Shown here piece by piece: positions 6,097 through 42,234 of a stretch of 64,000 nucleotides of DNA (the stretch's first letter is position 1; each line of letters opens with the position of its first letter). The position numbers and the translations under genes are program-made. The stretch lies in the NCBI RefSeq assembly GCF_947501405.1, contig NZ_CANMVK010000002.1:1178001-1242000 (forward strand). The letters run 5' to 3'. The notes beneath the pieces were generated by a model. The model was not told the origin of the DNA, searched no databases, and was given only the letters and a program-made list of their open reading frames with translations. Origin of the DNA: an uncultured Hoeflea sp. Lineage in GTDB: Bacteria > Pseudomonadota > Alphaproteobacteria > Rhizobiales > Rhizobiaceae.

Positions 6097-6203
6097 CTAG
6101 CGCATTTCCACTCGAAGTTGGGTCGGAAATTGCTGCCGCACGCGATGCTCGCTCGCATTTTCTGACACGCTACTGATTCAAACCGAAGTGGAATTGCGCT
6201 AGA
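6097..6203. repeat. RIME-like palindromic intergenic element, copy 1
   Basis: This ~107 bp element is bounded by CTAG at both ends. Its outer arms pair (CTAGCGCATTTCCACT with AGTGGAATTGCGCTAG), and inside them a second pair is formed by GGTCGGAAA and TTTTCTGACA plus a central GCGATGCTCGC stretch. Two closely similar copies lie at 38316-38421 (inverted) and 42082-42186 (same orientation). Size, double-palindrome form and intergenic location fit the Rhizobium-specific intergenic mosaic elements (RIME). This copy lies in the 347-base gap between the MAPEG gene and the DUF2164 gene; nothing else is evident in that gap. Confidence 0.85.
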
Positions 6204-37235: not shown

Positions 37236-37694
37236 TCAGTCCAGCCACTCCGGCGGCCGGTTGAATGGCGTGCCGAACCGCGACAGCCAAAGGCTGCGCG
37301 CGATGCGCCGGGCGGTCATCAGGATCGGGGCGGCGGTTCGCGGTTCGAACAACCGGTCGGTGGTGGCCTCGAACAACTCCAGCCACAGCCGGAAATCGTC
37401 CTCTTCCAGCCCCGGCAGACTGTTGTGCTTGGCGACCGGTTGACCTGAATATTCGCCCGAATGCAGCAGAACAGAACGCCAGAACCGGTTCATTCGGTCG
37501 AGATGCGGCTCCCATTGTCCGGCAAGCTTGGCCTCAAACAGCGGTCCCAGCCGCTCATGGCGGCGAATGGCGCTATAGAACTGGTCGACCAGATCGGCAA
37601 TTTGCTCAGGCGCAATCATTACGGTCGGCTTGCGCGGCGGCGCGGCGCGAGCGGCAATGACCCGCGGGGCAGGGCGCTCAGACATATCAGACAT
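37236..37694 (-). CDS. Group III truncated haemoglobin
   Basis: 152 residues; a smaller start at 37685 is possible and none has a clear ribosome site, in keeping with coupling to the upstream small gene. The globin core (IADLVDQFYSAIRRHERLGPLF, HLDRMNRFWRSVLLHSGEYSGQPVAKHNSLPGLEEDDFRLWLELFEAT) is the group III form; the proximal His lies in AKHNSLPG. Such proteins bind oxygen and nitric oxide in the cytoplasm. The start overlaps the stop of the 51-residue membrane protein by eight bases. The divergent Rrf2 gene encodes an NsrR-like regulator. Confidence 0.92.
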   Translation of the reverse strand: MSDMSERPAPRVIAARAAPPRKPTVMIAPEQIADLVDQFYSAIRRHERLGPLFEAKLAGQWEPHLDRMNRFWRSVLLHSGEYSGQPVAKHNSLPGLEEDDFRLWLELFEATTDRLFEPRTAAPILMTARRIARSLWLSRFGTPFNRPPEWLD

Positions 37695-37929: not shown

Positions 37930-38319
37930 ATGCGATTAACGCTTCACACCGACTATGCCTTCCGGATTCTGATGGCGCTGGCGCGAACCCCGAACCAGGT
38001 GATCTCGGTCGAGGAGCTGGCGGCCGAGTTCCGGGTCTCCAAGAACCACCTGATGAAGGTCGCGCAAAACCTTACCGCCGGTGGCTTCGTGGGCACCGTG
38101 CGCGGCCGCAATGGCGGGCTCAAACTCGCAAGGCCACCGCGCGAGATCAATCTCAAATCGGTGGCGCTGCACATGGAGCCCGATTTCGCCATTGCCGAAT
38201 GCTTCGCCAACCGCGAGTGCTCGTTTTTGCCGCGCTGCGGGCTCAAGGGCGTGCTCGCCGATGCCAGGCGAGCCTTTCTCGACACGCTTGACGGGCACGA
38301 TCTGCAATCGATCCTCTAG
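37930..38319 (+). CDS. nsrR: Rrf2 family regulator, NsrR-like
   Basis: 129 residues. Winged helix-turn-helix N-terminus (HTDYAFRILMALARTPNQVISVEELAAEFRVSKNHLMKV). Three cysteines, Cys91, Cys97 and Cys103 in ECFANRECSFLPRCGLK, match the iron-sulfur ligands of NsrR (91, 96 and 102 in Escherichia coli). NsrR senses nitric oxide and represses NO-detoxifying genes, in line with the divergent haemoglobin unit. The stop TAG belongs to RIME copy 2, and a second copy of the gene's 3' end lies at 40254-40343. The nsrR name is by similarity. Confidence 0.85.
   Translation: MRLTLHTDYAFRILMALARTPNQVISVEELAAEFRVSKNHLMKVAQNLTAGGFVGTVRGRNGGLKLARPPREINLKSVALHMEPDFAIAECFANRECSFLPRCGLKGVLADARRAFLDTLDGHDLQSIL
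38230..38315 (+). repeat. 3' end of the Rrf2 gene, left copy of an 86-bp direct repeat
   Basis: These 86 bases inside the Rrf2 gene are repeated at 40254-40339 in the same orientation with a single mismatch that I can see (G versus T at the twelfth base). The copies diverge again right after ATCCT: the left continues CTAG (RIME copy 2) and the right TTTAA. Between them lies the ankyrin-serine hydrolase gene. Confidence 0.92.
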
Positions 38320-38421
38320 CGCAATTCCACTTCAGCTTGAATCAGTAGCGTGTCAGAAAATGCGGGCGAGCATCGCGAGCGGCAGCAATTTCTGACCCAA
38401 CTTCCAGTGGAAATGCGCTAG
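38316..38421. repeat. RIME-like palindromic element, copy 2 (inverted)
   Basis: This ~106 bp copy is inverted relative to copies 1 and 3. It begins CTAGCGCAATTCCACTTCAG and ends AGTGGAAATGCGCTAG, with the inner TCAGAAA/TTTCTGA arms and the GCGAGCATCGCGAGC core intact. Its first TAG (38317-38319) is the stop codon of the Rrf2 gene, so the element begins exactly where the gene ends. Confidence 0.9.
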
Positions 38422-38495
38422 CCTCCGGCCCCAACCAGGAGGCAGCCGATTTGACCAGACCGCTCGACCTCCCGTGACCGGGTGTGAGCGCACGA

Positions 38496-40076
38496 TTACG
38501 GCAGCAGGGATATGAACTTGCCGGCCAGATTGAGATGCGACCGCTCATGCATCCAGTTCTCGCCGTCATGCTCGAGCCATGCCGGGTAGGCGGTGATGAC
38601 GAGCACCAGATCCAATTCGTCGATTAGAACGATCAACTGGCCTCCATGGCCCGAGGCGTAGTTCACCCGGCGGTTCCCCACATTTGCCTGCCACCACTGA
38701 TAACCATAGCCGAGATTACGGAAATAGCGGCCAGCGCGGGTTTTGCGTTCAAGCGTCACCCATACGTCGTCGGAATAGTTCGCAAGCGACGTGGCGACCC
38801 AGTCTTTCCCAATCACCCGCCTGCCGTCAGCGATCCCGCCGTTGAGATAGAGCATGCCGAACTTGGCGTGGGTTCGCGCGGTGGCCTCGAGCACGGGATG
38901 ATGTTGGCCTTGCGGATCGCGCGCCCAATCGCCAAGCACGCCGCCAATTGGTCCGATCACGGAGCTCTCGGCGAATGTCCGCAAGTCGGTGTCACAGGCA
39001 CGCTCGACAATAACCCCGAGCAGCCGGGTCGACAGGTTGGAATAGTTGAACGCGCCCCCCGGGGCATTCACCAGCGCGTACTCCGCCAGAAGCTGCAGAT
39101 TGTCATCCTGGACGAGTTTGTCCCACAGCACCGGATCGGTCTCTTCCCACGGAAGCCCGCTGCGCATCTGCAACAGATGACGGATCGTGATTTTCGAGGT
39201 CCTGGGATCGGTGATCCGGTCGGCATATTCGGGAAAGAACTCCACCACGGCCTGGTCGAGATCAGGCAGGCAGCCGCGTTCATGGGCAACGCCGACAAGG
39301 GCAGAGAAATAGGATTTTACCACCGACTGCATCAGCGACGGCGTGTCGATACCGCCTTCATTGAAGTATTTCTCGGCCACCAGTCTGCCGTTCTTGACCA
39401 ACAGCAGGCTGAAAAGCCTCGGCAGCGCCTCGGCATCCCGGTACATCTCGGCCACCGGTTCGGGATCCAGCCCCTCGGCTTCGGGTGTCGATACAGCAAA
39501 GCCGACGCGTTTGACAGGTGCGAGGTTCACGCCGCGCAACTCCGAGGCTGGAGACCTCAACATCTGCGCGATCTCAGGCCTGGCGGCCGCGACTTCGATG
39601 TCGTCCAATCGGAATCCGATCGGTGCGAGTCGGTCGCGAAGCTGGTCGAGGATTGCCCGCTCTTCGCGCAACGGAGCGGCTGCATAGTCAAACGCCATCG
39701 CGCCGCTTGCGCTTCGCGCATACCGGTCAGCTCCGCCCTCAAGCAGGCTCCGGACAACCTCGGTGCGACCCAGAAGGGCGGCTATGTGCAATGGACTTGA
39801 CCCTTGAGGGTCGCGCAAAGTTGAATCCGCGCCCGCCGCAAGCAGAGCCTCCGCCACCCTTGGCCTGTCGAAAACGGCTGCGATGATCAAGGGTGTCGAG
39901 CCGAACGTATCGCGCTGGTTCAAATCCGCTCCGGTCGCAATATGCTGCTTAACTGCGGCGATATCTCCGCGAACCACCGCCAGGGGCAACGGCACGTCCG
40001 GTCGCGTGTCATCGGCCAACGCACCCGCTGGAAACAGCAGAAACAACAGCGCGATCATCAGTGTTGGCATCTTCAT
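38496..40076 (-). CDS. Periplasmic ankyrin-serine hydrolase fusion (beta-lactamase/DD-peptidase fold)
   Basis: About 526 residues from the ATG at 40076 (another lies six bases later). A signal peptide (MPTLMIALLFLLFPAGALA) leads into three to four ankyrin repeats (about 30-140; GADLNQRDTFGSTPLIIAA, GADSTLRDPQGSSPLHIAA). The C-terminal ~300 residues are a class C beta-lactamase-like serine hydrolase: S251-V-V-K254 (MQSVVKS), Y345-S-N and a HGG motif (ASGHGGQ) for the KTG box. Relatives include peptidoglycan DD-peptidases, esterases and 6-aminohexanoate hydrolases. Fusion with ankyrin repeats in the periplasm is unusual. It sits between duplicated Rrf2 ends, which suggests it was acquired. Confidence 0.82.
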   Translation of the reverse strand: MKMPTLMIALLFLLFPAGALADDTRPDVPLPLAVVRGDIAAVKQHIATGADLNQRDTFGSTPLIIAAVFDRPRVAEALLAAGADSTLRDPQGSSPLHIAALLGRTEVVRSLLEGGADRYARSASGAMAFDYAAAPLREERAILDQLRDRLAPIGFRLDDIEVAAARPEIAQMLRSPASELRGVNLAPVKRVGFAVSTPEAEGLDPEPVAEMYRDAEALPRLFSLLLVKNGRLVAEKYFNEGGIDTPSLMQSVVKSYFSALVGVAHERGCLPDLDQAVVEFFPEYADRITDPRTSKITIRHLLQMRSGLPWEETDPVLWDKLVQDDNLQLLAEYALVNAPGGAFNYSNLSTRLLGVIVERACDTDLRTFAESSVIGPIGGVLGDWARDPQGQHHPVLEATARTHAKFGMLYLNGGIADGRRVIGKDWVATSLANYSDDVWVTLERKTRAGRYFRNLGYGYQWWQANVGNRRVNYASGHGGQLIVLIDELDLVLVITAYPAWLEHDGENWMHERSHLNLAGKFISLLP

Positions 40077-40253
40077 AACAGTTGCTGCCGGAAACAGGGC
40101 CAACCGCCACAAGGCCGGGCAAGCCGGATAAAACAATCCGAATTGTCTCGCTTTTAATGATCGTCGCCGCATTGATGCGGATCATGCCGGTCGGTATTCC
40201 GGTTCGGTATCTGCGAAATACATCTCTGGAATGCCGCCTTTGCGCGGGTGGAG

Positions 40254-40343
40254 CCGCGCTGCGGTCTCAAGGGCGTGCTCGCCGATGCCAGGCGAGCCTT
40301 TCTCGACACGCTTGACGGGCACGATCTGCAATCGATCCTTTAA
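40254..40343 (+). pseudogene. Fragment of a Rrf2 regulator gene (3' end only)
   Basis: These bases encode RCGLKGVLADARRAFLDTL and DGHDLQSIL followed by TAA, the same C-terminus as the intact Rrf2 gene at 37930-38319. No start or DNA-binding part precedes them: upstream the sequence loses similarity, apart from a possible GAATGC trace of the cysteine region. It is either the remnant of a tandem paralogue or the original 3' end displaced by an insertion. Not expected to be functional. Confidence 0.88.
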
Positions 40344-40435
40344 TGCCCCCTTGAGTAAATCCCGCGCCCGGCCAATATCCTCTCATTCGGCGCTCTGGTC
40401 CGCCGCCGCAAACTCCGTCGAAACGGGATCCGCTC

Positions 40436-40897
40436 ATGCCATTGCAAATTGTCATTCGGCCAATCCGGCCACAGGACCACAAGCAATGGAGTGCTCTTTG
40501 GAAGGGCTACAACGCTTTTTACGGACGAGAGGGCGCCAGCGCATTGACGGAAGATGTCATCCAGACAACCTGGAACCGGCTGATCTCGGAGGCTGAGCCA
40601 ATTCATGGTCTGGTTGCAGAATCAGACCACGGCCTCGTCGGGCTCGCCCATATCATCTTTCATCCCAACACCATTCACATCGAAGACACCTGTTATCTTC
40701 AGGACCTGTTCACGGAAGAAGAATGCCGCGGGCGCGGTGTCGCCCGGCAATTGGTCGAGGCCGTCCATGAGACCTGCCGCACCAGAGGCGTGTCGAGCAT
40801 TTACTGGCACACCCATGAGTCCAATACGACCGCCCGGCTGCTTTATGACAAGCTCGCAACAAACACCGGCTTTCTGGTCTATCGCACAACAGGCTGA
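40436..40897 (+). CDS. GNAT acetyltransferase
   Basis: 153 residues, starting MPLQIVIRPIRPQDHKQW. The GNAT acetyl-CoA motif is LQDLFTEEECRGRGVARQLVEAVHETC, with the pyrophosphate loop RGRGVA. The SSIYWHTHESNTTARLLYDKLA segment is the final conserved helix-strand. Substrate not evident; similar enzymes acetylate small amines or antibiotics. It lies 60 bases upstream of the RecD-like helicase gene on the same strand, which may be cotranscribed. Confidence 0.88.
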   Translation: MPLQIVIRPIRPQDHKQWSALWKGYNAFYGREGASALTEDVIQTTWNRLISEAEPIHGLVAESDHGLVGLAHIIFHPNTIHIEDTCYLQDLFTEEECRGRGVARQLVEAVHETCRTRGVSSIYWHTHESNTTARLLYDKLATNTGFLVYRTTG

Positions 40898-40956: not shown

Positions 40957-42084
40957 ATGCAGTTTTCTCCCCAACAGGATGAGGCGCTCAAGGCCGTCTC
41001 GCGCTGGCTCAAGGATGGCCGCTCGCAGCTCTTCCGGCTGTTCGGCTATGCCGGCACCGGCAAGACCACCCTGGCCCGGCACTTTGCCGAAAATGTCGAC
41101 GGCGAGGTGCTGTTTGCAGCCTTCACCGGCAAGGCGGCGCAGGTGCTGCGTGCCCGCGGCGCAAAGAACGCCCGCACCATTCATTCGCTGATCTACCGGC
41201 CCCGCGGCGAGGAGGAAGTGTCGGATGAAGAGACCGGCAAGACCACGATTTCGCCGATGTTTTCCATCAACCGGCAAAGCCCGCTGGCCCAGGCCGCGCT
41301 GATCATTATCGACGAATGCTCGATGGTCGACGAGGCCCTGGGCAAGGACCTGATGAGTTTCGGCACGCCGATATTGGTTCTGGGCGACCCCGGACAGTTG
41401 CCGCCAATCTCCGGCGGCGGCTTTTTCACCGAGCATGAACCCGATATCCTGCTCACCGAGATCCACCGTCAGGCCCGCGACAATCCGATCATCGATCTGG
41501 CCATGCAGGTGCGTGAGGGCCGCGAGATCATGCATGGCGATTATGGCGCCGCAAAGGTGATCGGCAAGGCCGATGTCGAGCGCGACATGGTGCTCGATGC
41601 TGATCAGGTTCTGGTCGGCACCAACCGCACCAGGCGGCGCTACAACCAGCGTCTGCGCCAACTCAAGGGCTTTACCCAGGACGTCCCCCAGGCCGGCGAC
41701 AAGCTGGTATGCCTCAGGAACGATCCTTCCAAGGGCCTGCTCAACGGGTCGCTGTGGCAGGTGATGACTGCTTCCAAGGAGACCGTCAAACCCGGCATCA
41801 ACCTGATGGTGCGGCCCGAAGACGACGACATGGATCGCGGCGCGGCCAAGATCAAGCTGCTCAAAAGCGTGTTCGAGGATCCGGGCCTCGAAGTGCCCTG
41901 GTCGACCAAGAAGCGCTATGATGATTTCGACTACGGCTATGCGCTTACTGTCCACAAGGCGCAAGGTTCGCAATGGAACTCGGTGGTGCTGTTTGACGAG
42001 AGTTTCGCCTTCCGCGACACGCGCGAGCGCTGGCTCTACACGGCGATCACCCGCGCTGCCGAGACGCTGGTGATCGTCCGGTAG
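40957..42084 (+). CDS. RecD-like superfamily 1 DNA helicase
   Basis: 375 residues from ATG 40957, AAGAGG upstream. Walker A is GYAGTGKTT (30-38); motif II is IIIDECSMVD; motif III is LGDPGQLPP; the C-terminal UvrD_C_2 motif is YALTVHKAQGSQWNSVVL, and TAITRAAETLVIV closes it. It is an ATP-dependent 5'-3' type helicase with only the ATPase core and no N-terminal RecD2 region, and is often annotated ATP-binding/AAA protein or phage-type Dda-like helicase. The stop TAG is the first TAG of RIME copy 3. Confidence 0.9.
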   Translation: MQFSPQQDEALKAVSRWLKDGRSQLFRLFGYAGTGKTTLARHFAENVDGEVLFAAFTGKAAQVLRARGAKNARTIHSLIYRPRGEEEVSDEETGKTTISPMFSINRQSPLAQAALIIIDECSMVDEALGKDLMSFGTPILVLGDPGQLPPISGGGFFTEHEPDILLTEIHRQARDNPIIDLAMQVREGREIMHGDYGAAKVIGKADVERDMVLDADQVLVGTNRTRRRYNQRLRQLKGFTQDVPQAGDKLVCLRNDPSKGLLNGSLWQVMTASKETVKPGINLMVRPEDDDMDRGAAKIKLLKSVFEDPGLEVPWSTKKRYDDFDYGYALTVHKAQGSQWNSVVLFDESFAFRDTRERWLYTAITRAAETLVIVR

Positions 42085-42186
42085 CGCATTTCCACTCGAA
42101 GTTGGGTCAGAAATTGCTGCCGCTCGCGATGCTCGCCCGTATTTTCTGACACGCTACTGATTCAAGCTGAAGTGGAATTGCGCTAG
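42082..42186. repeat. RIME-like palindromic element, copy 3
   Basis: This 105-base copy, in the same orientation as copy 1, runs from TAGCGCATTTCCACT to AGTGGAATTGCGCTAG. The inner arms GTCAGAAA and TTTTCTGAC pair perfectly here. Its first three bases are the stop codon of the helicase gene, and it separates that gene from the convergent TauE-type gene. Confidence 0.9.
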
Positions 42187-42234
42187 AGGCCGGAGTCCGG
42201 CTGGTCGCACTGTCCGCGCCCTATGGGCGAGCCC

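Follow-up and report, generated by a model that had tools for sequence, protein, structure and literature searches.

The nsrR locus and its repeated gene end

The stretch analyzed here (the window) comprises 64,000 nt of contig NZ_CANMVK010000002.1 from an uncultured Hoeflea sp., in which an ankyrin-serine hydrolase gene is bracketed by two direct copies of the 3' end of a regulator gene. The regulator (37930..38319, plus strand) is a complete Rrf2-family gene (PF02082, E 1.5e-29) of NsrR/RirA-like type, and we use nsrR as its short name. Copy 1 of the duplicated end (38229..38318, plus strand) closes this gene, and copy 2 (40253..40342, plus strand) is an orphan without a 5' part, with nothing nsrR-like before it. 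Our data support an insertion that left the regulator whole and repeated its 3' end. The locus is a real insertion scar, most likely a recombinase-free, homology-anchored one, of a kind already known but in a new example.

In a self-comparison of the window, the direct repeat spanned 38229-38318 and 40253-40342, comprising 90 nt at 98% identity with the copies 2024 nt apart. A preliminary description of this DNA had reported an 86-bp direct duplication with one mismatch; this is real (38230-38315 and 40254-40339), with the match reaching 90 nt through the stop codon. Over that length the copies differ at three places (GGG/GGT, CTC/CTT and TAG/TAA), all of them synonymous (P 0.018-0.029 under random change), with two of the three being the last two codons of the nsrR end. 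The same description had the copies continue differently, with CTAG vs. TTTAA; the contrast is present, but CTAG forms one end of a 106-bp palindrome, dispersed in the genome and overlapping copy 1 by 3 nt, and the TAG/TAA difference lies within the repeat match itself. To gauge the repeat against its genome, we took the window and 40 further 20-kb stretches (864 kb in total) and ran each one against itself (BLAST E<=1e-8, at least 40 nt, at least 85%), yielding only two non-palindrome repeat pairs more than 1 kb apart, namely the nsrR end and one beside an SDR gene, together with short-spaced repeats (69-504 nt) at three further places. The nsrR-end repeat exceeds chance. In a survey of variable segments, 10-18% of segments were repeat-flanked and 66-94% of those repeats were shorter than 30 bp (PMC2884548), placing a 90-bp repeat at the long end of the range.

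The inserted segment, about 1.9 kb with a single recognizable gene, encodes on the minus strand (38496..40076) a predicted protein of 526 aa with an N-terminal hydrophobic segment typical of export (as judged by eye), ankyrin repeats (PF12796, E 9.7e-14) and a beta-lactamase-fold serine hydrolase domain (PF00144, E 3.3e-27; 96 bits vs. a cut-off of 27). The motifs SxxK (251-254), YSN (345-347) and HGG (477-479), which we take to be catalytic, were invariant across nine aligned sequences. Judged by profile and motifs, the product is a PF00144 beta-lactamase-fold serine hydrolase, resembling the PF00144 hydrolases with ankyrin repeats in having both domains and all three motifs intact; NCBIfam equivalog models matched it only far under their cut-offs. 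Comparison with three relatives (pN 0.12-0.15, pS 0.53-0.57) indicates that the gene is under purifying selection. About 100 bp ahead of its start lies a conserved box (40160..40190, minus strand; TGAyC..rTCAA, then GCGG), presumably Crp/Fnr-like, that is kept in the window, in two Marimonas species and in a genome from another genus of the same family (G062). The remainder of the segment is anonymous: the left flank (38422..38495) is unlike the corresponding spacer of the congener G014, with no match below E 0.067 for 38422-38500 in 20 relatives; the right end (40191..40252) has no nsrR similarity, and 40077-40252, when searched against 20 relatives, had 0.0015 (over 26 nt) as its best E-value outside this genome, short of the threshold of E<=0.001; and six other open reading frames (ORFs) of the insert region had no Pfam match.

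The empty site and the origin of the hydrolase

To reconstruct the state before insertion, we turned to 17 other genomes of the genus (the genome collections used here hold one genome per species). At the DNA level, 13 have a near-full-length nsrR and in another (G008) the contig begins inside nsrR; among the three without a near-full-length gene, two gave no match and one (G006) a 68-nt match. The 14 congener loci were compared by tblastn with ten window proteins (E<=1e-6), each showing a single nsrR match and a RecD-like helicase gene downstream of it, with the hydrolase absent from all 14. In one of the 14, G014, the order is nsrR-GNAT-helicase with one nsrR end, the GNAT acetyltransferase gene starting 95 bp after the nsrR stop codon and being 83% identical to the GNAT gene at the same position in the window (40436..40897, plus strand; PF00583, E 1.3e-15). 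The DNA after copy 2 aligned with the G014 spacer with a score of 75 (shuffle maximum 31; 0/500 as good), identifying 40343..40435 (plus strand; aligned part 40344-40435) as the ancestral nsrR-acetyltransferase spacer, and the DNA after copy 1 scored 12, with 480/500 shuffles as good. Since it is copy 2 and not copy 1 whose downstream DNA corresponds to the G014 spacer, we conclude that the hydrolase was added between nsrR and the GNAT gene; on this alignment G014 represents the empty site and copy 2 sits in the ancestral context. The preliminary description had proposed looking for an empty site with a single Rrf2 end followed by TTTAATGCCCCC, and G014 fits, the bases after its stop codon being homologous, not identical. 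This empty-site evidence comes from one congener.

We also scanned 13 of the loci for duplicated nsrR ends (50 shuffles each; L091 was excluded, with only part of the gene present). One congener, G015, scored 30 vs. a shuffle maximum of 28, reflecting a decayed second copy of the nsrR 3' end and a REP-like repeat in tandem with the first, no gene lying between them (L080:3880-4265). Another hit (L086, 22 vs. 21) was an 11-nt match away from the gene end and was dropped as trivial.

Among 61 genomes of the genus, family and order (own included), 44 had some match to the hydrolase at E<=0.001, with the best one outside the own genome covering the hydrolase domain only (36%). At E<=1e-60, the hydrolase was found in 2 of 394 family genomes, namely its own and G062 (76%; this genome also carries a second copy at 43%), and in 1 of 385 class genomes, again its own. 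A search of genome contigs returned eight hydrolase loci, two in Marimonas (74 and 78%), which belongs to another order, the Rhodobacterales, and six in distant groups (47-50%). The DNA similarity to Marimonas and G062 is limited to the gene and the short upstream box, so the hydrolase seems to travel as a gene with its promoter. Taken together, we infer that the hydrolase was acquired horizontally. The gene had been called foreign-looking before, which holds for its distribution but not for its composition (GC 0.610 vs. 0.622 for the window). Carriage by phage or plasmid was dropped as an explanation: 104 plasmid and 6 phage records matched, none spanning 80% of the protein, and no match in viral contigs was confirmed. 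As a separate observation on this family, in an Ignavibacteriales relative (L096:6001-7500) the hydrolase part comes first, and an ankyrin part with the beginning of the linker comes after it in the same reading frame, in keeping with either a swapped domain order or a tandem fusion.

Routes of entry

We propose, with a probability of roughly 0.6, that the hydrolase and its own promoter were inserted behind nsrR by homology, with no dedicated recombinase. In the incoming DNA, the hydrolase would have stood behind about 90 bp from the 3' end of a closely related nsrR allele, one with CTC TAG as its last codons, on a molecule that was either circularized or anchored at a single end. A single crossover within the part of nsrR common to both would then have integrated it into the chromosome. 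The 5' part of the resident nsrR would thereby have acquired the end brought in by this molecule (copy 1), and its former end, with CTT TAA, would have been displaced to the far side (copy 2); the palindromic repeat would have been inserted at the TAG later. The regulator would have survived because the crossover fell within its last 90 bp, so that selection, not an enzyme, would explain why the repeat stops at the stop codon. As in a Campbell-type integration, the insert is flanked by direct copies of the shared segment and a relative, G014, has the one-copy empty site. A repeat that ends at the stop codon is what would be expected of alleles with different downstream DNA recombining inside the gene, and differences confined to synonymous positions are what would be expected of two working alleles, both favoring homology. 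The preliminary description had noted that no recombinase is present, and in keeping with this none of the seven PF00589 integrases of the genome lies in the window (serine recombinases were outside the search), and neither the hydrolase ORF nor the six others of the insert have a recombinase domain. The genome also gave no match to Ku. These two absences, of a PF00589 integrase from the window and of a Ku match from the genome, favor homology over other routes.

Comparable products have been described. When a molecule that carried the end of lacZ was transferred by conjugation in E. coli, 56 of 60 Lac- clones were positive for a duplication-diagnostic PCR (polymerase chain reaction) product and 14 sequenced clones had 109-950 bp of the lacZ end twice; the authors concluded that a circular molecule, shortened most likely by trimming and re-circularization, had integrated through a single crossing-over (PMC3240628). 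Shared with our locus are one insert, partial duplication of a gene end and the lack of a site-specific recombinase; the differences are that those clones were picked as Lac-, whereas our locus has an intact regulator and a repeat of 90 bp, and a circle was not observed. In the same paper, true homology-facilitated illegitimate recombination is given a very low frequency, with an insertion accompanied by a deletion of similar size as its usual product, unlike the duplication here (PMC3240628). That process has been proposed for modules of the V. cholerae type VI secretion system (PMC5361080), a case which shares with the present one a homologous anchor joined to one non-homologous junction, the addition of a foreign module and a downstream shift of older genes or gene ends.

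Several observations weigh against entry by homology. No donor allele having the hydrolase downstream of nsrR was found. Three changes underlie the synonymous argument, and the two in the last two codons could instead belong to the insert; an att site borne by an element would give the same picture. The G015 locus shows that a duplication at the nsrR end is possible without an inserted gene, and in principle such a duplication could precede insertion. Last, the other long-spaced repeat of the survey, a 79-nt, 92% repeat of the 5' end of an SDR gene around a membrane-protein-like gene (L126:7488-8949; G000:C1:307488-308949), is not a clean case of a second such insertion: in G001 the fragment occurs but the membrane-protein-like gene does not, and in G002 a relative of the latter adjoins the SDR gene while the 1.5 kb examined shows no fragment. 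Depending on the species, the SDR gene-end fragment has an extra gene next to it or lacks one.

Among the alternatives, the one that survives best is a relic of an integrase-borne island whose attP contained the nsrR end, with the integrase and most of the cargo lost and the hydrolase left between attL and attR. Integrase islands at gene 3' ends rebuild the gene end and leave the displaced end on the far side; the nsrR locus shares this layout, with the gene intact, its 3' end repeated at both borders and the repeat ending at the stop codon, and a gene end borne by an att site would likewise change only synonymously. The likeness to integrase insertion pointed out in the preliminary description is confined to this layout. 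The insert differs from such islands in having no tyrosine integrase in the window (a search genome-wide for PF00589 alone, not for serine recombinases), in the lack of Pfam matches in its six further ORFs and in its length with but one recognizable gene. In addition, none of the 14 congener loci has an island at the nsrR site, the distance from nsrR to the next conserved gene being at most about 560 bp, and an exact search of viral contigs with a 26-nt piece of the gene end gave 0 matches. We regard this origin as unlikely.

A staggered break or template switching might have let foreign DNA be captured, with an 86-90 bp target copied on both sides as a very long target duplication. Such a route would explain the near-identical direct repeats as well as the missing recombinase, and end joining does exist in the lineage, given that Ku is found in 10 of 18 genus genomes. 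This genome is not among them, and Ku-type end joining was set aside as the default route on that ground; moreover, nothing would make a random duplication end at a stop codon or restrict its differences to synonymous ones. We consider this route decidedly unlikely. As for the position of Ku in the genus, four congeners (G003, G011, G013 and G015) have it about 24-27 kb away from nsrR.

It is also very doubtful that the duplication came first, with the hydrolase landing between a partial or full tandem nsrR copy and the original and the second copy then decaying. The decayed tandem end plus spacer repeat in G015 and the SDR gene-end fragment in G001, which occurs without the extra gene, are in line with such an order of events, but upstream of copy 2 there is no nsrR similarity (224/500 shuffles score as well), the DNA after copy 1 holds no trace of that following copy 2 (294/500 as good) and two nsrR matches occur in 0 of 14 congener loci. 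For the same reasons we discarded the alternative in the preliminary description, a mostly deleted tandem Rrf2 paralogue: nsrR matches once per locus in all 14, and the sequence preceding copy 2 matches neither the nsrR body nor its promoter side (184/500) better than shuffles do, leaving no 5' remnant of a second copy. A transposon is dismissed on the 90-bp length of the repeat, the lack of a transposase domain in the seven insert ORFs and the lack of a border pair among the 20 inverted pairs listed.

The palindrome, flanking genes and possible function

The 106-bp dispersed palindromic repeat (38316..38421), termed RIME in the preliminary description, begins in the nsrR stop codon and occurs in 16 copies in the genome (94-100%), with those in the window at 38316-38421, 42082-42187 and 6097-6202. 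Its predicted RNA fold has a free energy of -41.6 kcal/mol (z -4.96). In 11 of the 16 copies, the terminal TAG closes an open frame of at least 100 codons, counted from stop to stop and not checked individually as a gene, against an expectation of 0.38 per element for random CTAG sites (P 0.014). The RecD-like helicase gene also ends in a copy (42082-42187); in the 14 congener loci its stop codon is at the same position, being TAG in 9 and TGA or TAA in 5, and by eye none of the 40-nt tails printed for these congener ends resembles the palindrome. Given the nine TAG-ended helicase genes without repeat-like tails, the palindrome seems to insert at existing TAG codons, and the CTAG/TTTAA contrast between the two nsrR ends is thus best read as a separate event. 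The palindrome was rejected as the cause of the repeat boundary, as it sits at TAG stop codons in most of its copies. A 3-bp target duplication (CCT) was considered and not upheld at other copies, and an Rfam match to mir-507 (28 bits vs. a gathering score of 79) was taken as chance. A literature search on palindromes at TAG stop codons, which did not cover the original RIME papers, turned up nothing at listing level.

As for the regulator, its best solved relative is NsrR (5n07, E 1.7e-11), but both NCBIfam equivalog scores were below cut-off (NsrR, 93.9 bits vs. 182; RirA, 106.5 bits vs. 193) and it is therefore filed only as Rrf2, NsrR/RirA-like. Upstream of it, on the minus strand (37236..37694), lies a group III truncated hemoglobin-like gene (phmmer to 2ig3, E 1.1e-18) which had no match in a Pfam scan and which adjoins nsrR in 13 of the 14 congener loci, the 14th locus ending at a contig border. 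Group III truncated hemoglobin is a kind of protein often tied to nitric-oxide stress. Elsewhere in this genome (L092:5122-6890; G000:C1, about 60.1-61.9 kb), a RirA gene scoring above the cut-off is divergent from, and beside, another beta-lactamase-fold hydrolase gene; a Rrf2 match and a hydrolase match adjoin in 16 of the 17 other genus genomes as well.

The surroundings of the hydrolase offer a hint of function. In Marimonas arenosa, its neighbors include an AAA protein of the CbbQ/NirQ/NorQ type, COX1-type and COX3-type subunits and a Crp-like regulator, and in the window it lies near the nsrR-like and truncated hemoglobin genes; among the four close contexts seen, two have genes of nitric-oxide type nearby. 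Based on these nor-type and Crp-like neighbors in M. arenosa and on the nsrR-like and hemoglobin genes here, we put forward, as a lead only, that the product may be an exported serine hydrolase of the nitric-oxide or low-oxygen response. Weighing against this, the hydrolase neighbors examined in M. lutisalis and G062 gave no nitric-oxide hint. A literature search on nsrR, denitrification, beta-lactamase and ankyrin surfaced nothing relevant at listing level. It would be a long step further, and one we deem improbable, to suppose that the 3' end of a gene like nsrR serves as a recombinase-free landing pad, where arriving DNA that shares a few dozen bases of that end integrates through a single crossover with the gene staying whole, and that a nitric-oxide-response hydrolase with its promoter spreads in this manner as a bare one-gene unit, landing beside nitric-oxide regulators.

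What the locus offers is a well-preserved scar from the entry of a single foreign gene, most likely without mobile-element machinery and with the target gene unbroken. A gene that is followed by a single foreign gene and then by an orphan copy of its own end makes a pattern open to computational searches in any genome, and counts of such scars would gauge how much gene gain bypasses integrases. The presence of a rare ankyrin-serine hydrolase near nitric-oxide-type genes, in turn, provides a testable lead to its function.

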